DNA of 64,000 nt, taken from IMG/VR virus record IMGVR_UViG_3300024346_000022, positions 32,748 through 96,747 of that record; one strand, 5' to 3'. Both the position numbers and the translations under genes were made by a program. This DNA is from a virus. A model generated the notes under the pieces. The model was not told where the DNA came from and did no database searches. It saw nothing but the letters and a program-made list of their open reading frames with translations. The first letter of the stretch is position 1, and the number at the start of each line of letters is the position of its first letter. Of this stretch, positions 27,601 to 58,340 are shown one piece after another.

Positions 27601-28640
27601 TATGTAACAATTCCAGGACCAGAAGGGCAACTAAACTGAAGTCCGGAAAGAGAAATACCCATACCAACCGTGAATTTATGAGCACTATTGGTATAGGCAG
27701 TTAAAAGTCCTGTCCTATTATCATAAAGAGCATTTACTATATTTAAAGTTGGTACATTTAAATCAAGAACAAAAGTATCCGAATTTTCTGCCGCAGCACT
27801 TGTGACTATTCCTGTATATTTTAAGGGTCCTATACCATCGGAAATTAGTCCATAGTTACCAAAGGAAGAGTTTGAGTTTGTAAGATCACAAGCAGCACCA
27901 CTTCCACAAAAAACTGCAATATCACTACAAATTGTGAAGAGAGAAACTAACTGTGCATATCCCTCATTTGTAATTGAGATTCCAATACCACCTTGATTAT
28001 ATTGAGTATAAGAGTCAAGAACCATACTCTTAGTTGGTCCAATTGCTTTGGAACCATCAATTCTCATTCCAATACTTCCAGGAATAAAATTGGTTCCGTT
28101 CTGTACATAAGGTGATTGATCAAAATATCCTATTTGATCAGGATTAAAGGAGAAGATTGCCCTACCAGGATTCATCGTTCCGGTATAGGACATTTCTGCA
28201 ACATAAACCCCATTTGCCACATAGAACAAATCTTGATCTGGATTCTGTGGTGATACTGATACTTCTCTTAGACTATCACCGACGATTGAGACTTGTTCTG
28301 GAATGGTTAGAGGATTGTTCTCTATATAAGATCCAGCACTAACTTTAATAACTGATCCTGTTGTTGCCTGTGTGAGTGCTGCTCCAATTGTTCTTTTGGC
28401 GTCTCCGAGTTTGAGTCCGGTGTTTGTGTCGTTTCCGTCTTTTGTGACATATAAAATATTTGTGACTGTTGTTCCGGCACCGATGCGAATAATGTCAGTT
28501 CCTATTCCAGGACGATCCCTTCTACCCGTAAGTTCACCATCATAGGTATTATACGCTAGTTCGCCACTTAAGAGTTGATTGATTGTGGGTCTTTTGCCAG
28601 GAACAGCAGACCTTTTAATCCTAATTGGAGTTCCGTCCAT
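24636..28640 (-). CDS. Large tail-fibre/adhesin protein with two sets of internal repeats
   Basis: 1334 residues. Residues about 60-250 read YVTKDGNDTNTGLKLGDAKRTIGAALTQATTGSVIKVSAGSYIENNPLTIPEQVSIVGD, a pectate-lyase-like right-handed beta-helix start common in phage adhesins. Residues about 375-520 hold four copies of a 43-residue unit around NKQEIVDKSLASIA..FYFP. Residues about 530-1080 hold four copies of a 140-residue unit beginning CARDLGYLIDAISTDVFTGG. The C-terminal third is beta-rich. First gene after the late promoter at 28692. Confidence 0.85.
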   Translation of the reverse strand: MDGTPIRIKRSAVPGKRPTINQLLSGELAYNTYDGELTGRRDRPGIGTDIIRIGAGTTVTNILYVTKDGNDTNTGLKLGDAKRTIGAALTQATTGSVIKVSAGSYIENNPLTIPEQVSIVGDSLREVSVSPQNPDQDLFYVANGVYVAEMSYTGTMNPGRAIFSFNPDQIGYFDQSPYVQNGTNFIPGSIGMRIDGSKAIGPTKSMVLDSYTQYNQGGIGISITNEGYAQLVSLFTICSDIAVFCGSGAACDLTNSNSSFGNYGLISDGIGPLKYTGIVTSAAAENSDTFVLDLNVPTLNIVNALYDNRTGLLTAYTNSAHKFTVGMGISLSGLQFSCPSGPGIVTYPSGNKGYVFETKTVAPGRYVDAANSIRANRTEIQDKSLAAIALNHPDFYFPGDPQTTQYSRFYDSYRLIQQNKQEIVDKSLASIAVGFPSDFYFPDEPETNARSRYYDASRLIQINKQEIVDKSLGSVAIAHSDFYFPGDIQTNSRSRYFDSYRLIQKNKDVVVSIAWTNTYNVYPGIATSEEKCKRDLGFFIDAISTDILTGGNNYSRQFTLKYFDSAGNPITNGLQGEEVASNYAFVEARQLMKSAITNTLVGAAYSDLTITADPLTGSNTNPSSCANVRTNIDNLVGIVTTVIGSGNTSSLPNTNFGYFNLSVGIGSTSSPGGYKCARDLGYLIDAISTDVFTGGNKYSRDFTLQYFDNSGNPISNGLVGETVESVTAFNASRDLMKKAITNQLNFKNLGISSGPASYGGIGTSLLVLQSGNPNSCADVQSNIDNLVGIVTTVIGLGTTGSLLTFNENLGISTTNKCARDLGYFVDAISTDIFTGGNSYSIAFTKFYFDNVGSATTSLLGEESESVYAFASAREYAKKAITNQLNRKDLTLTADPTPSSGISSNTNPNSCTNVRDAIDTLVGISIQAISSGNLTVLNSININPGIFVTGQNKCRRDIGYVVDAIADDLEEFTNNNIIIATESYFDINGNPLSNGLVGEVTESITAFHAVRDYSKKAINNLLNYQDLTLQIDPLTGSNQDEDSCSNVKNTIDNLVGILTTSIASGNTSSIPTTASRASTVFTANVGVSTLPHTYVPNTGTAKINVIRPFDGQVVYFSKLYYTVEKILVSNGGSGYFISPEIDISDPETNFGVAAQAVAEVKDGVVVSIDMVSSGRGYTYTPTVTLTGPEVGINTAVAIPIMVPTYYSILSSTPISAGICTITINDNVPYDVGIGTLVPFFKQSRVLATGHSLEYIGSGTEIATALPATGGVPIQENETDARNGGLVVFTSTDQSGNFRIGDGVVIDQQAGTISGTFYSKSLFSTITPFILALGGD

Positions 28641-31659: not shown

Positions 31660-33671
<2,012 letters not shown>

Positions 33672-33829
33672 TTGTTAAAAAGGGGGTAAGTATGAGTTCG
33701 GGGGACGAACTTGGTATAGTATACTCCACGATACCCTCCGTCGTGGATATGAGGGATGCTTTACTTCTCTTGATCCCGGTTTGAGAAGACACGGTTCTCA
33801 GAATTGTCACATTCCTTAACCCCGTGTAT
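33672..33829 (-). promoter_or_regulatory. psbA 5' leader with hairpins
   Basis: About 158 nt between the promoter and the ATG. Contains stems TCCACGA/TCGTGGA (around 33724-33747) and GTTCG/CGAAC (around 33694-33709), and a pyrimidine/GGG-rich stretch before the ATG. May stabilise the mRNA or control translation. Confidence 0.45.
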
Positions 33830-52831: not shown

Positions 52832-52903
52832 TCGGGGTGGGAGGTAACGCTCCCCCTTCGCTGCGTCCCAAACGCAGAGTTATAACTTTTCTACTACACC
52901 CCG
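52832..52903 (-). tRNA. tRNA-Pro(TGG) with non-canonical D- and T-loops
   Basis: 72 nt. Perfect acceptor CGGGGTG/CACCCCG with C1:G72 and A73 (bacterial tRNA-Pro hallmarks), perfect anticodon stem CTGCG/CGCAG, loop TTTGGGA with U33, anticodon TGG and G37. T-stem GGGGG/CCTCC closes a 7-nt loop AGCGTTA instead of TTCRANY; the D-arm is weak and lacks GG. The same T-loop occurs in the tRNA-Asn-like element at 57376. Confidence 0.7.
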
Positions 52904-52910
52904 TTTCTTT

Positions 52911-53057
52911 TCATAGGACCCAATGTCTTATCAACCATATAGAATGTATAATACCAAAAACAAACAAGGAACCAATAATTCCACTAATAATTCCAACACG
53001 AATTTCGTGATTTTTTATGGATTCATTTATCATTTTTTCTATTTCATCTCTATCCAT
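52911..53057 (-). CDS. 48-residue membrane peptide
   Basis: ATG at 53057. An N-terminal charged helix (MDRDEIEKMINESIKNHEIR) is followed by a membrane span (VGIISGIIGSLFVFGIIHSI) and a basic end. Overlaps the upstream stop by 8 nt. Confidence 0.6.
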   Translation of the reverse strand: MDRDEIEKMINESIKNHEIRVGIISGIIGSLFVFGIIHSIWLIRHWVL

Positions 53058-53250
53058 TCATAAAGTCCTCATATGTCTTTAAGATTTCTCTATCAATATC
53101 ATCTAAACTTTTATAAGAAGATTTCCAATTAGACTTAATTAATCTATCAATAAATTGATATACTTTAGTTGTTAGAGAAATTTTCATACGAACAAAAGAA
53201 CTTAAAAAAAATTGTCTTTTTTGCCAATTTTTATCCTTGATGTTCTCCAT
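53050..53250 (-). CDS. 66-residue basic protein, unknown
   Basis: MENIKDKNWQKRQFFLSSFV..., helical, basic. Starts inside the upstream frame and overlaps the next. No motif. Confidence 0.55.
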   Translation of the reverse strand: MENIKDKNWQKRQFFLSSFVRMKISLTTKVYQFIDRLIKSNWKSSYKSLDDIDREILKTYEDFMNG

Positions 53251-53386
53251 TTAGATATTTTGATAATGGATCTTTTTTAGTTTTTATAATTTCACAAGCT
53301 CTATTATAGAACATATTATCAGTATTACCAGATTCTTCAAATGTTTGTTTAATTTTTACCCAATTGTTATAGGCATGATCGTCCAT
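53231..53386 (-). CDS. 51-residue unknown protein
   Basis: ATG at 53386; MDDHAYNNWVKIKQTFEESG then NMFYNRACEIIKTKKDPLSKYLNG. Part of a run of small overlapping genes. Confidence 0.55.
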   Translation of the reverse strand: MDDHAYNNWVKIKQTFEESGNTDNMFYNRACEIIKTKKDPLSKYLNGEHQG

Positions 53387-53471
53387 TTAAATTTATAGTT
53401 AATAATAATAATTTATCTTAAAGATAATATTGACTTTAATTTTTATGTGTGGATTTTATGACACAAAATAT

Positions 53472-53732
53472 TTAACGAATCTCAAAATCTAAACGGCGAA
53501 CTTTACGCTGGCGTCTTTCTTCTTGCCACATTAAATCCTCATTACGAAGAACATTACTTGTGGTTTTTTGAGTTTGATTATTCAGCATTACTATCATTGA
53601 CAAATCAAGAGCAGTAATTTTAGCATTACGAATAATGGTTGCCATATTAGAGCAACCACAAGAAACTGATTTTGCGGCATTTCCTTCTATCTCCTTTTCA
53701 CAAGAGCGACATCTAATTCTTAAGTTTTCCAT
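53472..53732 (-). CDS. Small zinc-ribbon-like protein
   Basis: 86 residues. CRSCEKEIEGNAAKSVSCGCSNMATIIRN provides four closely spaced Cys in CxxC and CxC arrangement, suggesting a zinc site, followed by a helical charged tail (MWQEERRQRKVRRLDFEIR). Cyanophage-type protein of unknown role. Confidence 0.7.
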   Translation of the reverse strand: MENLRIRCRSCEKEIEGNAAKSVSCGCSNMATIIRNAKITALDLSMIVMLNNQTQKTTSNVLRNEDLMWQEERRQRKVRRLDFEIR

Positions 53733-53752
53733 TTGTCATTATAAGTTAATTT

Positions 53753-54187
53753 TTATTCGGTAAATGAACGTAGCATCCAAACAAACTTACCGTGTGCTTC
53801 GTTTAAATCATCAGCAAGATTAACAGTTCCTCTTGACTTTTGTGCGTCTGCTTCTTCGGCAACTTCACCTAACATATCTATAATCTTTTTATGACCCTCA
53901 AGTAGATCTTTAATCATTTCCATTTCAGAGATATTAGTTTTTGCTTCTCCTACACCAGAAACTTCTACAACTCTAGACAAAGAACTAATAGGTTTGATTC
54001 CTAAAAATCTCATATGTTCTGATATACGATCAACTTCTTCCTGAAGTTCTTCATACTGCTCTCCAAACAAATCGTGAATTTGTTTAAAGTCGGATCCCAC
54101 AACATGCCAATGATAGACCCAGGTTTTTTGAAATAACAAAAAAAGTGATGCTTGTGTATCACTTATAAGTTTATACAGTTTTTCCAT
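53753..54187 (-). CDS. Dps-like ferritin-fold protein
   Basis: 144 residues. The N-terminal helix pair WVYHWHVVGSDFKQIHDLFGEQYEELQEEVDRISEHMRFLG has the Dps ferroxidase pattern (H, H, D/E, D, E with W-H-V-x-G). The rest is four-helix-bundle sequence. Dps proteins store iron, consume H2O2 and bind DNA; a phage copy may limit oxidative damage during photosynthesis-driven infection. Possible late promoter CCTAAATA at 54210-54217. Confidence 0.88.
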   Translation of the reverse strand: MEKLYKLISDTQASLFLLFQKTWVYHWHVVGSDFKQIHDLFGEQYEELQEEVDRISEHMRFLGIKPISSLSRVVEVSGVGEAKTNISEMEMIKDLLEGHKKIIDMLGEVAEEADAQKSRGTVNLADDLNEAHGKFVWMLRSFTE

Positions 54188-54212
54188 TATACTAAATGTT
54201 TTAAGTATTTAT

Positions 54213-54377
54213 TTAGGAACCACTTATCATATATTCTACAGTATTTGCCACATCATTCATCGCTTCTCGTAGATTTTCACTTTGACCAGATTCTTGTTTG
54301 CGAACAGGACGAGAACTATTACAAAGAGTCCACCGCCACTGATTCATAGAATCACACCACCATAAGTTAATTTTCAT
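54213..54377 (-). CDS. 54-residue unknown protein
   Basis: ATG at 54377; MKINLWWCDSMNQWRWTLCN followed by a charged helix (SENLREAMNDVANTVEYMIS). Trp- and Cys-rich N-terminus. Starts 11 nt inside the preceding gene. Confidence 0.6.
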   Translation of the reverse strand: MKINLWWCDSMNQWRWTLCNSSRPVRKQESGQSENLREAMNDVANTVEYMISGS

Positions 54378-54525
54378 TCTTATAGTGCTCCAGCTCAATC
54401 CATTTAAGAAGTGTATTAAATGAAGTAATAGATGCCTGAGTACAATTATCGTCCTTAAGTCTTTGAATATAATACTCAAGTGCCTCAATAACCATTTGGC
54501 GGTCTGTTTGTGATATTAGTGACAT
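54367..54525 (-). CDS. 52-residue helical protein
   Basis: ATG at 54525; MSLISQTDRQMVIEALEYYI then KDDNCTQASITSFNTLLKWIELEHYKNEN. Overlaps the next gene. Looks like a small helical bundle; no family named. Confidence 0.6.
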   Translation of the reverse strand: MSLISQTDRQMVIEALEYYIQRLKDDNCTQASITSFNTLLKWIELEHYKNEN

Positions 54526-54554
54526 AAAAATCTTAACTCCAAGTTATAGTACAC

Positions 54555-54580
54555 AAAAAAGGGGGTTTTGCCACCCCCCC
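54555..54580 (-). terminator. Intrinsic terminator of pstS
   Basis: Stem GGGGG/CCCCC followed by six T on the minus strand, 7 nt after the pstS stop. Confidence 0.88.
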
Positions 54581-54586
54581 TATGTA

Positions 54587-55552
54587 TCATTCCTTAATTT
54601 GATTTACAGCAGCCTGTGCTTTTGCTTGAATTGCATCCTTAAGAGGAACATATCCAAGATCATCAGCAAATGCCTGTGCCTTATCACTCAGCATATAATT
54701 GATAACACCTTTAATAGCATCAGTCTTAGCACCATTACCAGTTCTATAGGCAAGCAGATAAGTCAGTGTTGCAATGGGATATGCACCTTTTGCAGAAGGA
54801 TTTGGATCCTGCCCTGCAAGGTTTTTATTCAGAACAATACCATTCAGTGCCTTGGCACCGGAAGCATAACTAGGGAGAACAAACTCACCAGACTTATTCT
54901 GAACTGCCGCTGCTTTCAGATTACCTTTGACAAAGGATTGATTGAGATATCCAATAGATCCGGGAGTTGTTGCAAGAATACCGGCAACGCCATCATTACC
55001 TTTACCACCAACACCAACTTTCCAATTTACAGACTTAGCAGATCCAAGTGTCCATTCTTTAGAAAATGCTTGCATTGATTCGGTGAATGCAGCAGTGGTT
55101 CCAGAACCATCAGAACGGTGTGCTACGGTGATTTTACCAGCAGAGCAACCAAGTTCTTTCCAGTTATCAATAGAACCCATAAAAACAGATACTGCTTGCT
55201 TCTGAGTGAGTTTCAGTTTGCAAGCAGGATTATTGTAGGCAATTGCAATTGTTCCACCAACAGTAGGAATTTGTACCACACCACGAGAAACTTTAGCACG
55301 ATCCTTATCACTAATTGGATCATCAGTAGCACCAAGGGCAACTGTTTGGTCAATGAATGCCTTACGACCACCACCAGAACCAATTGCTTGATAATTGACT
55401 TTGGGACCGTCAGATTTGGCAAGATTAGAGAACCAACGAGTATAGATGGTTTCAGGAAATGTAGCACCAGCAATATTGATTCTTGCAGGCAATGCAAATG
55501 CTGCGGTAGGAGAAAGAGCAAGACCAATAGCAATAAAATGTTTGAGTTTCAT
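54587..55552 (-). CDS. pstS: Phosphate-binding protein PstS
   Basis: 321 residues. Signal peptide MKLKHFIAIGLALSPTAAFA, then INIAGATFPETIYTRWF, GSGGGRKAFIDQ, RSDGSGTTAAF (phosphate-binding loop) and GSIGYL: typical PstS. It binds phosphate in the periplasm for the host PstABC transporter. Common in cyanophages and induced by host PhoR/PhoB. Own terminator downstream; the porin gene upstream ends in its own terminator. Confidence 0.96.
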   Translation of the reverse strand: MKLKHFIAIGLALSPTAAFALPARINIAGATFPETIYTRWFSNLAKSDGPKVNYQAIGSGGGRKAFIDQTVALGATDDPISDKDRAKVSRGVVQIPTVGGTIAIAYNNPACKLKLTQKQAVSVFMGSIDNWKELGCSAGKITVAHRSDGSGTTAAFTESMQAFSKEWTLGSAKSVNWKVGVGGKGNDGVAGILATTPGSIGYLNQSFVKGNLKAAAVQNKSGEFVLPSYASGAKALNGIVLNKNLAGQDPNPSAKGAYPIATLTYLLAYRTGNGAKTDAIKGVINYMLSDKAQAFADDLGYVPLKDAIQAKAQAAVNQIKE

Positions 55553-55598
55553 AAAAATGTTTTAAAGTTAAATTTTGGTTAAATGTACCTTAATATCA

Positions 55599-55620
55599 AA
55601 AATCCCCCTTGCGGGGGAAT
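55599..55620 (-). terminator. Intrinsic terminator of the porin gene
   Basis: CCCCC-TTGC-GGGGG stem followed by TTTTT on the minus strand, 27 nt after the porin stop. Confidence 0.85.
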
Positions 55621-55646
55621 AAATTGATATTGTACCTTATAGGTTA

Positions 55647-57131
55647 TCAGAACGTAAACTTAGTCTGAATTACGCCACCCCACTTGGAGGAGTTTTGATA
55701 ACGTTGGTTGTTATCAGCATAAAATATTGCCGGAGTAATACTAATGTTATCGGTGACTTGATACTTATAGAAGATCTCAATCATTAGAGCATCAGATACT
55801 TTTGAAACTTCTGCCGAGGGTGCTTGACCCACAGCAACGCCAGCACTATTACCCTTGGCAAATACATCAGACCACTGAAGACCAGCAAACCACGAATCCG
55901 AGTTCGTAGCACCATTTTTACCAACACGACCAGTTACGGAGTTATATCCATAACCAGCACTGATAGAAGGAACCCAACCAGATTCGACCGGTTGCCAATA
56001 AGCATTCAGAGCAACAGAGTTTGATTCCTGACCACTATCAAGAGCACCATTGGCACCCAGAAGACCGTTGTAGGTGCGAGGACGAGTGTTGACACCACCA
56101 TAGCGGTAACCAACAGCAACTCCCCACTGAGGAGCACGATAACCCACCTGAGCGAGCACGTTTAGACCACCATCAGAATCAAATACACCTGTTTCAGAAA
56201 ACTCACCATCTTGTGCGACATAGTTCACACCAGCCATGAAACCACCTTGACCTTTTTGAGTAGGTTGTTTCCATTGAGCACCGAAACCAGCACCAGTTGC
56301 CTTGTTATAGACACCAGAAGTACCAGCAAGTTGGAAAAAGTCAAGGATTTCTGACTTATAGGCAGAAGGAATCCACGACATCTCGGTATTACGAACCAAA
56401 GGACCAGCAGTTAGAGTTACACTCTTACCGACTGGGAATTGATAGTAAAGACGATCAATCACTGCTTGATCGGAATAAGATTCTGCCTTATCAACTTTGA
56501 ACAGAGAAGAGGAAGAACCAAAAGGATCAGAACTAAAGTTTCCTGAACGGAGACGAGTACGAAGCAAATCCTTACCCGTGAATGAAGTATCAAAGTTCAG
56601 ACGGAGATCATAGTTGAATGCGGTGTTGCCGACGTTTCCACCTTTATTCGTTTTAAGACCAGGAACTCCACCAAGAACAAAGTTTGCTTCACCCTTGAGT
56701 TTGGTTGTAGTAGAGAATTGTGTTGCCTGAAGTTGACCAACTTTATTCTCAAGACCATCCACACGAGAAGTCAATACAGTCAATTCTGCATCAAATTCTG
56801 CTAGGAGTTTTTTGAGTTCATCAGTAACTTCTGTTACACGATCTAGACAAGCATTAAGAAGAGCAGCAGCCTCAAAGCGAGTCATTGACTGACCGCCCTT
56901 ATAGGTTCCGTTAGGATATCCTGCCACACAACCATAACGCTCTACAAGATTGCTGAGTGCTTGATATGCCCAGTCAGTTGTTTGGACATCAGAGAATTGA
57001 GTAATGCTAGTAACTTGTTCCGAAGAGGCATATTGATTTACACCCTCAAGATTCAGTTCAGCAGCAGTTGCGGTAGGAGCGATAAGTCCCAGAGCAACCG
57101 GAGCAAGCATTAATTGTTGAAAAAATTTCAT
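55647..57131 (-). CDS. Som-type porin with SLH domain
   Basis: 494 residues from ATG 57131. Signal peptide MKFFQQLMLAPVALGLIAPT (cleavage near TATA-AEL). Residues 45-100: SLH motif FSDVQTTDWAYQALSNLVERYGCVAGYPNGTYKGGQSMTRFEAAALLNACLD. Then coiled coil (LKKLLAEFDAELTVLTSRVDGLENKVGQLQ) and a beta-barrel (OprB-like) ending in FTF. This is the standard cyanobacterial outer-membrane porin architecture, so the gene is host-derived. It likely raises outer-membrane permeability, plausibly to phosphate given its neighbour pstS. Confidence 0.93.
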   Translation of the reverse strand: MKFFQQLMLAPVALGLIAPTATAAELNLEGVNQYASSEQVTSITQFSDVQTTDWAYQALSNLVERYGCVAGYPNGTYKGGQSMTRFEAAALLNACLDRVTEVTDELKKLLAEFDAELTVLTSRVDGLENKVGQLQATQFSTTTKLKGEANFVLGGVPGLKTNKGGNVGNTAFNYDLRLNFDTSFTGKDLLRTRLRSGNFSSDPFGSSSSLFKVDKAESYSDQAVIDRLYYQFPVGKSVTLTAGPLVRNTEMSWIPSAYKSEILDFFQLAGTSGVYNKATGAGFGAQWKQPTQKGQGGFMAGVNYVAQDGEFSETGVFDSDGGLNVLAQVGYRAPQWGVAVGYRYGGVNTRPRTYNGLLGANGALDSGQESNSVALNAYWQPVESGWVPSISAGYGYNSVTGRVGKNGATNSDSWFAGLQWSDVFAKGNSAGVAVGQAPSAEVSKVSDALMIEIFYKYQVTDNISITPAIFYADNNQRYQNSSKWGGVIQTKFTF

Positions 57132-57190
57132 ATAGTTTGTTAAGAAATACAACTACGATGTTTATTTAGCTCCCCTGATATTTGAGGGGA

Positions 57191-57261
57191 AGCGGATACA
57201 CGGATTTGAACCGAGGATAAAAGTTTGGAAAACTCTTGTGTTACCACTACACCATATCCGC
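57191..57261 (-). tRNA. tRNA-Gly(TCC)
   Basis: 71 nt. Acceptor GCGGATA/TATCCGC, anticodon loop TTTCCAA (TCC), canonical T-arm (GGTTCAAATCC). Its promoter (57272-57300) starts transcription within a few nt of the mature 5' end. Confidence 0.92.
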
Positions 57262-57271
57262 ATTTGAGAGA

Positions 57272-57300
57272 ATTATAAGACATAATGAGTATTATGTCAA
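57272..57300 (-). promoter_or_regulatory. Sigma70-type promoter of tRNA-Gly
   Basis: TTGACA (57295-57300), 17-bp spacer, TATAAT (57272-57277); overlaps the 3' end of tRNA-Thr. Confidence 0.88.
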
Positions 57301-57373
57301 GCCCCCAGCGAGGATTTGCACCCGCGACTATCGCTTACAAGGCGATTGTTTTAACTACTACAACTATGGGGGC
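57300..57373 (-). tRNA. tRNA-Thr(TGT)
   Basis: Acceptor GCCCCCA/TGGGGGC, anticodon stem ATCGC/GCGAT, loop CTTGTAA (TGT), T-arm GCGGG-TGCAAAT-CTCGC (loop slightly unusual, TGCAAAT). Confidence 0.85.
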
Positions 57374-57375
57374 AA

Positions 57376-57448
57376 CTCCCCTCCTAGGTAACGCTCCTAG
57401 CTATCTCGAATTAACAGTTCGGCCCATTCGCTTGCTTGGTCGAGGGGA
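57376..57448 (-). tRNA. tRNA-Asn(GTT)-like with non-canonical D- and T-loops
   Basis: 73 nt with exact canonical spacing: perfect 7-bp acceptor TCCCCTC/GAGGGGA, G73, anticodon loop CTGTTAA at positions 32-38, 4-bp anticodon stem CGAA/TTCG, T-stem CTAGG/CCTAG. T-loop is AGCGTTA (same as tRNA-Pro), D-arm 3 bp and no GG in the loop; position 8 is G instead of T. Either a degraded tRNA or a working atypical one. Confidence 0.55.
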
Positions 57449-57565: not shown

Positions 57566-57594
57566 ATATTACACCATTTCTGGGATGGTGTCAA
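57566..57594 (-). promoter_or_regulatory. Sigma70-type promoter of the tRNA-Asn/tRNA-Thr unit
   Basis: TTGACA (57589-57594), 17-bp spacer that itself folds (CACCAT/ATGGTG), TAATAT (57566-57571). Confidence 0.75.
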
Positions 57595-58061
57595 GTCCAA
57601 AGATTATGATCATATTCCCAATGACAATTTGGGCACAAAGGCATTATATTTTGTTTTGAGTTTATTTCACTAATCAATATATCATCACTAAAGGAAGAAA
57701 TGGGTTTTATATGTGCAACTTCTATATGTTTATTATATCCACATTTAAGACACTCAGTAAATCCAAGTTTTTTAGCAATTGCTCTCGCTCTTGTTCTTAC
57801 CAAGGAGAATGCCGATGACTTGTGGTGATTTTCATATATCGCTTCTTTAAGAGTCATATCTTTTACTTCTTTATTCTTTATCCATATCAAATAGTGTTCC
57901 ATACAACGAGCACGATTTGCTGTTATTGGTTTTCCACAATCCAAACATTTATGTTCAGGTTTTCTTTTAGGAACCTTTTTATTGTTATAAGAAGCAGCAC
58001 AACTTCTACTGCAAAATTTGGGATTAGAAGTATGCTTTTCGCAAAATAAACATTTAATCAT
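57591..58061 (-). CDS. HNH homing endonuclease (second copy) with zinc fingers
   Basis: 156 residues. N-terminal zinc modules CLFCEKHTSNPKFCSRSC and CLDCGKPITANRARCMEHY; the HNH core CLKCGYNKHIEVAHIKPISSFSDD...NIMPLCPNCHWEYDH has CxxC, the HI-x-P strand, the central Asn and the final CxxCH. It sits in the tRNA region, a usual home for homing genes. Leader hairpin and late promoter at 58065-58104. Confidence 0.88.
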   Translation of the reverse strand: MIKCLFCEKHTSNPKFCSRSCAASYNNKKVPKRKPEHKCLDCGKPITANRARCMEHYLIWIKNKEVKDMTLKEAIYENHHKSSAFSLVRTRARAIAKKLGFTECLKCGYNKHIEVAHIKPISSFSDDILISEINSKQNIMPLCPNCHWEYDHNLWT

Positions 58062-58109: not shown

Positions 58110-58228
58110 CGTCTCGTGCAAGATTCGAACTTGCGACCCACTGCTTATCACCTTATAAGGAATTGAACCTTATCATAACCACCCGGAAGGCGGAAGGCAG
58201 TTGTTCTAATCCGCTGAACTAACGAGAC
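58110..58228 (-). tRNA. tRNA, probably Arg(TCT), with 45-nt insertion in the anticodon loop
   Basis: 119 nt. Acceptor GTCTCGT/ACGAGAC, normal D-arm (TTCAGCGGATTAGAAC), anticodon stem ACTGC/GCAGT and canonical T-arm GCAAG-TTCGAAT-CTTGC are all intact. The loop is 52 nt (58145-58196) instead of 7. Removing 45 nt gives CTTC|TAA, anticodon TCT. The insert folds into two hairpins: CCGCC-TTCCG-GGTGG and ATAAGG-TTCAATT-CCTTAT, the latter looking like a T-arm. Confidence 0.7.
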
Positions 58229-58265: not shown

Positions 58266-58340
58266 ATGGGTTCGGTGGGGTACGATCCCACAACCTTTGC
58301 CTTAAAAGGGCACTATTCTTCCAGTTGAATTACGAACCCA
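58266..58340 (-). tRNA. tRNA-Lys(TTT)
   Basis: Acceptor TGGGTTC/GAACCCA, anticodon arm GTGCC-CTTTTAA-GGCA(A), anticodon TTT, T-stem GTGGG/CCCAC with loop ATCGTAC. Confidence 0.88.

Follow-up and report, generated by a model that had tools for sequence, protein, structure and literature searches.

The window analysed here is a stretch of 64,000 nucleotides (nt) (positions 32,748 to 96,747 of IMG/VR virus record IMGVR_UViG_3300024346_000022), part of a 96.7-kb viral contig; the virus is a T4-like cyanophage and a relative of Synechococcus phage S-SRM01. It carries two transfer RNA (tRNA) genes on its minus strand, a tRNA-Pro(UGG) at 52832..52903 and a tRNA-Asn(GUU) at 57376..57448, which depart from the usual pattern at the elbow, where the D-loop and the T-loop meet. 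The T-loop of both genes reads AGCGTTA (A54 G55 C56 G57 U58 U59 A60), at 52845..52851 in tRNA-Pro and 57389..57395 in tRNA-Asn. The D-loops, AAAAGTTA at 52883..52890 in the ARAGORN structure of tRNA-Pro and AGCAAGCGAA at 57427..57436 by direct reading of tRNA-Asn, both lack the GG dinucleotide, as a first-pass annotation of the window had noticed.

Outside the elbow the two genes are built as elongator tRNAs. Read directly, tRNA-Pro runs CGGGGTG.TA.GTAG.AAAAGTTA.TAAC, with acceptor CGGGGTG/CACCCCG, C1-G72, A73, anticodon TGG and T-arm GGGGG-AGCGTTA-CCTCC. The tRNA-Asn runs TCCCCTC.GA.CCA.AGCAAGCGAA.TGG (D-arm CCA-AGCAAGCGAA-TGG), with acceptor TCCCCTC/GAGGGGA, G73, anticodon GTT and T-arm CTAGG-AGCGTTA-CCTAG. 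Each folds as a cloverleaf in which the acceptor, anticodon and T stems are paired, and the identity bases and anticodons fit proline and asparagine, as had been claimed. The anticodon loops, TTTGGGA and CTGTTAA, look ordinary, as read without comparison to a host sequence or cut site. In place of the G18-G19/U55-C56 of elongator tRNAs stands A18-G19 with G55-C56, and in place of the U54-A58 intraloop pair stands A54-U58. If the register is taken from natural pairs of genes that differ as A18/G55 against G18/U55, A18 and G19 would fall at 52887 and 52886 in tRNA-Pro, and at 57432 and 57431 in tRNA-Asn. An 11-mer common to both genes, GGAGCGTTACC, occurs exactly twice in the window (expectation with up to one mismatch, 0.19) and nowhere else in the 96.7-kb contig. 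The 7-mer AGCGTTA alone, with four copies found against three expected, is not unusual, so the significance of the loop comes from its placement in two tRNA folds and from its relatives.

The expectation that such genes escape standard finders held for one of the two. ARAGORN found tRNA-Pro and missed tRNA-Asn, and a permissive Rfam scan gave tRNA-Pro 37.6 bits against RF00005 and did not list tRNA-Asn; a fast Rfam scan listed neither. Across the wider class described below, ARAGORN recovered 109 of 238 genes and therefore misses more than half.

The same loop recurs in many other tRNAs. A scan with the T-arm of tRNA-Pro found an identical gene (L129), and a divergent homologue (L130) in which nothing but the loops and the acceptor is retained and which has an encoded CCA at its end. 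After parsing by cloverleaf geometry, 238 tRNAs with AGCGTTA were retained, 135 from scans of viral contigs and 103 from a scan of bacterial genomes, with about 26 anticodons among them. Their discriminators suit the isotype (G in tRNA-Asn, A in tRNA-Ile, C in tRNA-His, U in nearly all tRNA-Cys), and the tRNA-Tyr and tRNA-Ser members have long variable arms. Most encode CCA, a frequency that is informative only for two of the viral scans, since CCA was a search requirement in the other viral scan and in the bacterial scan, the latter also requiring an AAGT D-loop. Full tRNA geometry was found in 97 of the 132 hits of the CCA-requiring viral scan, as against 3 of 2,640 when those sequences underwent mononucleotide shuffling. 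Absence of the loop from relatives would have spoken against a real class; instead AGCGTTA is kept with quite different stems and in many isoacceptors. For example, the cultured Pseudomonas phage 16Q has a tRNA-Ile with AGCGTTA and CCA and a tRNA-Pro with AGCGTAA. A BLAST of single genes against cultured phages had at first given no close homologue with the same loop. The match in Acinetobacter phage DLP3 was set aside, as the region examined holds a G55 variant tRNA-Phe (TGCAATT) and not AGCGTTA. Likewise, hits to the pattern CTGTTAA..AGCGTTA without the closing G53-C61 were mostly chance matches and were filtered out. Several AGCGTTA tRNAs with a CAU anticodon (L389, L399, L405, L446 and others) combine an unusually short D-loop (AAGT) with a mismatch at the 1-72 pair, and in this they recall initiator tRNAs.

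The D-loop and the T-loop change together. Among 2,045 distinct tRNAs tabulated from ARAGORN structures, those with U55-C56 have GG in the D-loop (1,583 of 1,601), those with G55-C56 have AG (344 of 355; in a slightly larger set GG is absent from 337 of 356), those with U55-U56 have GA (38 of 39) and those with U55-A56 have GU (10 of 10). A pairing rule of U55 with G18, G55 with A18, C56 with G19, U56 with A19, and A56 or G56 with Y19 fits 421 of 451 non-canonical tRNAs, as compared with a mean of 340 and a maximum of 360 when the T-loops were permuted 2,000 times. With AGCGTTA, the search sequence, excluded, the fit is 328 of 357 against a permuted maximum of 276. The cleanest evidence of covariation is given by near-identical tRNA pairs. 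For example, the tRNA-Val(UAC) genes of L440 and L389 agree at all but 4 of 74 positions, the exceptions being the acceptor pair 6-67 (T-A or G-C) and positions 18/55 (A/G or G/U). Pairs of tRNA-Ile, tRNA-Lys, tRNA-Thr and tRNA-Phe show the same 18/55 switch amid few to many other changes. The A54-U58 swap is a separate axis, found with G55 in 112 tRNAs and with U55 in 71; T-loops of the form ATCRT, which combine it with U55, have GG in 69 of 69 cases.

Evidence for function comes from conservation and from gene content. Several cyanophage contigs, L297, L360 and L290 among them, carry the 57-nt interior of the tRNA-Asn unchanged, and their neighbouring proteins share about 43-83% identity with those of the window. 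The acceptors of the tRNA-Asn relatives, TCCCCTC/GAGGGGA, TCCCCAC/GTGGGGA and TCCTCAC/GTGAGGA, differ only by compensated changes, and the third D-stem pair is A-T in the window and G-C in L269 and L316. Saccharibacteria bacterium 47-87 (G001, one 900-kb contig) has 41 tRNAs covering all 20 amino acids, and the only tRNA-Cys found in it has the T-loop AGCGTTA and the D-loop GAGAAGTTA. Similarly, the single tRNA-Cys of a second Saccharibacteria genome (G002, one 905-kb contig, 39 tRNAs) carries AGCGTTA. Judged from this gene content, the alternative tRNA-Cys would be needed for translation in both organisms. In phage T5, the tRNA-Ile(GAU) (L623 3211-3287; T5 28210-28286) has U56-A19, with T-loop TTTAAAT and D-loop AGCGATCTA, and a GenBank note records that it acts as an amber suppressor once its anticodon is replaced, a hint that E. 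coli can use a tRNA with a compensated elbow. In the two Saccharibacteria genomes, the single-copy tRNA-Gly(GCC) has U19-A56 and the single-copy tRNA-Pro(UGG) has A19-U56. A second candidate for a sole isoacceptor, the tRNA-His of Blackburnbacteria, was dropped, as ARAGORN finds two tRNA-His genes. The tRNA-Cys genes on Rothia and Micrococcus plasmids were also rejected as members of the alternative class; they are ordinary relatives of the Saccharibacteria gene, with TTCGAGT or TTCGAAT and GG.

The sequence class covaries, is conserved and supplies the one tRNA-Cys found in each of two near-complete cellular genomes; on this evidence both genes of the window are very probably working elongator tRNAs whose D-loop and T-loop bases form a different, compensated elbow, much as the first-pass annotation had suggested for a working class. 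In the ordinary elbow stack, R57 lies between G18-Psi55 (Psi, pseudouridine) and G19-C56, with U54-A58 beneath; the exposed face of G19-C56 serves as a recognition surface for the ribosome, among other partners, and the target of TruB is GUUYRANYC (PMC7912444, PMC4810234). The first-pass annotation had pointed out that the GG needed for the normal elbow contact is lacking. The GG is indeed absent; to put it more exactly, the contact appears to be replaced. A18 is predicted to face G55 instead of G18-Psi55, G19-C56 is predicted to remain, G57 is retained, and U54-A58 is reversed to A54-U58, so that the L shape and the 19-56 face exposed to the ribosome and RNase P would be preserved. It is likely that the A18-G55 contact holds the same fold and that these tRNAs are active in translation in this phage. 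As U54 and U55 are absent, it follows from the sequence that T54 cannot be formed by TrmA, nor Psi55 by TruB.

Several points weigh against this reading. Neither gene of the window encodes CCA. The acceptor stems are paired as the first-pass annotation had stated; elsewhere tRNA-Asn is irregular, with a D-stem of 3 bp and a C-A mismatch at 27-43. The counts of non-canonical classes give no prevalence, since the contigs were selected for containing AGCGTTA, and many of the phages keep tRNAs with ordinary elbows too. In the permutation comparison, the Y19 part of the rule was fitted after the data were seen, and the rows are related by descent and not phylogenetically independent. The two Saccharibacteria genomes are metagenome-assembled and near-complete, and each consists of one contig of about 0.9 Mb. 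Only part of the group has the alternative tRNA-Cys, which is found in 5 of 61 sampled genomes of the class.

In some genomes the change extends to nearly whole tRNA sets. G55 is present in 20 of the 23 tRNAs read in one phage contig (G244) and in 21 of the 24 read in another (G245), where a few lower-scoring ones were left out. Three loci of Verrucomicrobia have G55 tRNAs only (13 of 13, 13 of 13 and 11 of 11), and an array of Chthoniobacter flavus (G242, array L513) has 12 of 15 in one cluster, besides tRNAs scattered on other contigs, the elbows having been read in the array alone. The resistance to tRNA-cutting or -modifying defences that the first-pass annotation had proposed is addressed in part, by the missing uridines on which T54 and Psi55 depend. 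Evasion of nucleases or other enzymes directed at the elbow is a plausible selective reason for the rewired elbow. A wider and more speculative proposal, unlikely as it stands, is that phages and mobile arrays carry a second competent tRNA set, re-coded at the elbow as a set (A18-G55, often with A54-U58), which would be invisible to enzymes of the host or of competitors that read the standard TPsiC elbow (T54/Psi55 modifiers, for instance, tRNases that act on the elbow, or a nuclease with which a phage destroys the tRNAs of its host), and that some bacteria have adopted one of these as their only isoacceptor.

The serious rival to an adaptive explanation is that the tRNAs are functional but neutral, with positions 18/55 and 19/56 drifting in compensated pairs under relaxed selection and to no benefit. 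This account is quite possibly correct on why the variants exist, and it is compatible with what they are. It agrees with the coexistence of several alternative combinations, those of the Saccharibacteria tRNA-Gly and tRNA-Pro included, and with single-sided intermediates being rare but present; however, the near-complete conversion of the phage and Verrucomicrobia sets exceeds what independent drift easily gives. A further rival concerns the topology of the elbow, in which an antiparallel two-base helix of G19-C56 and Y20-G55 would take the place of the canonical register with A18-G55. Many D-loops do have a pyrimidine after AG, but position 20 is A in several of them (AATAGAA, AACAGATA, AACAGACA), the natural switches alter the base before G19 and not the one after it, and the U56-A19 and A56-U19 classes hold the canonical register; such a helix is therefore improbable. 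Decay of ordinary tRNA genes into pseudogenes, a very improbable origin for the two genes, might be read from the low scores, the missing GG, the tRNA-Asn passed over by finders, and the syntenic S-SRM01, which carries ordinary-elbow tRNA-Pro and tRNA-Asn in the same neighbourhood. For the class it is already contradicted by the occurrence of the same loop in many isoacceptors, the compensatory stem changes, the matched 18/55 changes and the two cellular genomes in which no other tRNA-Cys was found; the acceptor changes among relatives of tRNA-Asn are compensated, unlike those that decay would leave. Least probable of all is a tRNA-like fold that keeps its loop for a purpose other than translation (a target for recombination or homing, a regulator, or aminoacylation for the cell wall). 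In its favour, an HNH-endonuclease-like open reading frame (ORF) at 57591-58061 adjoins the genes, and clusters of phage tRNAs often contain homing endonucleases. Against it stand discriminators that are specific to the isotype, anticodon loops of normal appearance, the encoded CCA and the use of this form as the only tRNA-Cys found.

The compensated elbow can be set against known tRNAs. Laboratory-selected suppressor tRNAs with altered D- and T-loops are active with other elbow combinations, and are a lead only; they are products of selection and not natural sets. Eukaryotic initiator tRNA, position 54 and its partner aside, keeps the ordinary 18-55 and 19-56 contacts. It resembles the present genes in having a natural A54 in the T-loop (PMC7912444), and differs from them in pairing it as A54-A58 and not A54-U58. 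With the canonical elongator tRNA (RF00005) the class shares the cloverleaf, the 7-bp acceptor, the 7-nt anticodon loop, the 7-nt T-loop closed by G53-C61, the discriminators and, in most relatives, CCA; it departs from it in A18-G55 and A54-U58, where G18-U55 and U54-A58 are called conserved (PMC7912444, PMC4810234). Like the phage tRNAs that evade defence (van den Berg 2023, PMC10264068; PMC11555353; PMC13096335), these are encoded by phages and may escape enzymes acting on host tRNAs. Unlike the anticodon-loop mutations of van den Berg 2023, the change here is in the elbow and the anticodon loops look ordinary; the text of PMC10264068 does not mention the T-loop, D-loop or elbow, and PMC13096335 reports cleavage in the variable loop of tRNA-Tyr. 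The dense sets also resemble the tRNA arrays and clusters found on phages, plasmids and chromosomes beside housekeeping tRNAs (PMC5966550, PMC6409571, PMC12803027; the Anabaena trn operon, PMC10272220), and no mention of the T-loop or D-loop was found in PMC10272220 or PMC12803027. A search of the open-access literature, with subscription literature outside its scope, found no publication on this tRNA class.

The class bears on how tRNAs are found and studied. G18-Psi55, G19-C56 and U54-A58 are presented as universal for cytosolic tRNA and are built into the tools for tRNA search and design; for example, a published tRNA-design pipeline takes the GG motif as its anchor for aligning D-loops (PMC12037408). 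Phage tRNA sets are probably undercounted by standard annotation. The natural compensated variants show which features of the elbow are needed and offer ready-made double mutants for work on RNase P processing, modification, EF-Tu binding and translocation. If the conversion of whole sets is adaptive, phage and host would be in conflict over the tRNA elbow too, at a level so far unrecognised.

The two tRNAs picked out by the first-pass annotation are not the only unusual ones. A tRNA-Thr(UGU) at 57300..57373 (minus strand; ARAGORN and permissive Rfam scan) shows a second variant of this elbow, U54 G55 C56 with an AG D-loop, and its T-loop TGCAAAT (57314-57320, minus strand) has one extra base on the 3' side. 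A tRNA-Lys(UUU) at 58266..58340 (minus strand; same two sources) has the A54-U58 swap alone, with T-loop ATCGTAC (58280-58286, minus strand) and the usual GG in its D-loop. Elsewhere on the contig, beyond the window, a tRNA-Met has U55-A56 with G18-U19. A tRNA-Gly(UCC) at 57191..57261 (minus strand; ARAGORN, Rfam) has an ordinary elbow and serves as an internal comparison. The source contig thus samples both changes together in tRNA-Pro and tRNA-Asn, G55 only in tRNA-Thr, A54-U58 only in tRNA-Lys, U19-A56 in tRNA-Met and the ordinary elbow in tRNA-Gly.

Other features were noted in passing. The 156-aa ORF at 57591-58061 (minus strand), like HNH homing endonucleases by sequence, lies between tRNA-Asn and a tRNA-Arg(UCU) at 58110-58228 (minus strand). 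The anticodon loop of the latter is interrupted by about 45 nt of inserted sequence, holding a hairpin like a T-arm, and the gene has an identical copy in L274, a second contig that comes from this virus or a very close one; either it would need splicing to work, or it is a broken gene. Four group I intron matches lie within 1.3 kb at 31737-33037 (minus strand), with a PhotoRC-II RNA near them at 33711-33800 (Rfam). The ordinary tRNA-Cys genes on the Rothia and Micrococcus plasmids (L710 5001-5074 and L711 5001-5074) lie in metal-resistance regions, and the PLSDB table, which omits RNA genes, lists no gene there. In S-SRM01, a match to the abiF RNA family (L003 7598-7634, 49.3 bits) lies just outside the tRNA cluster.

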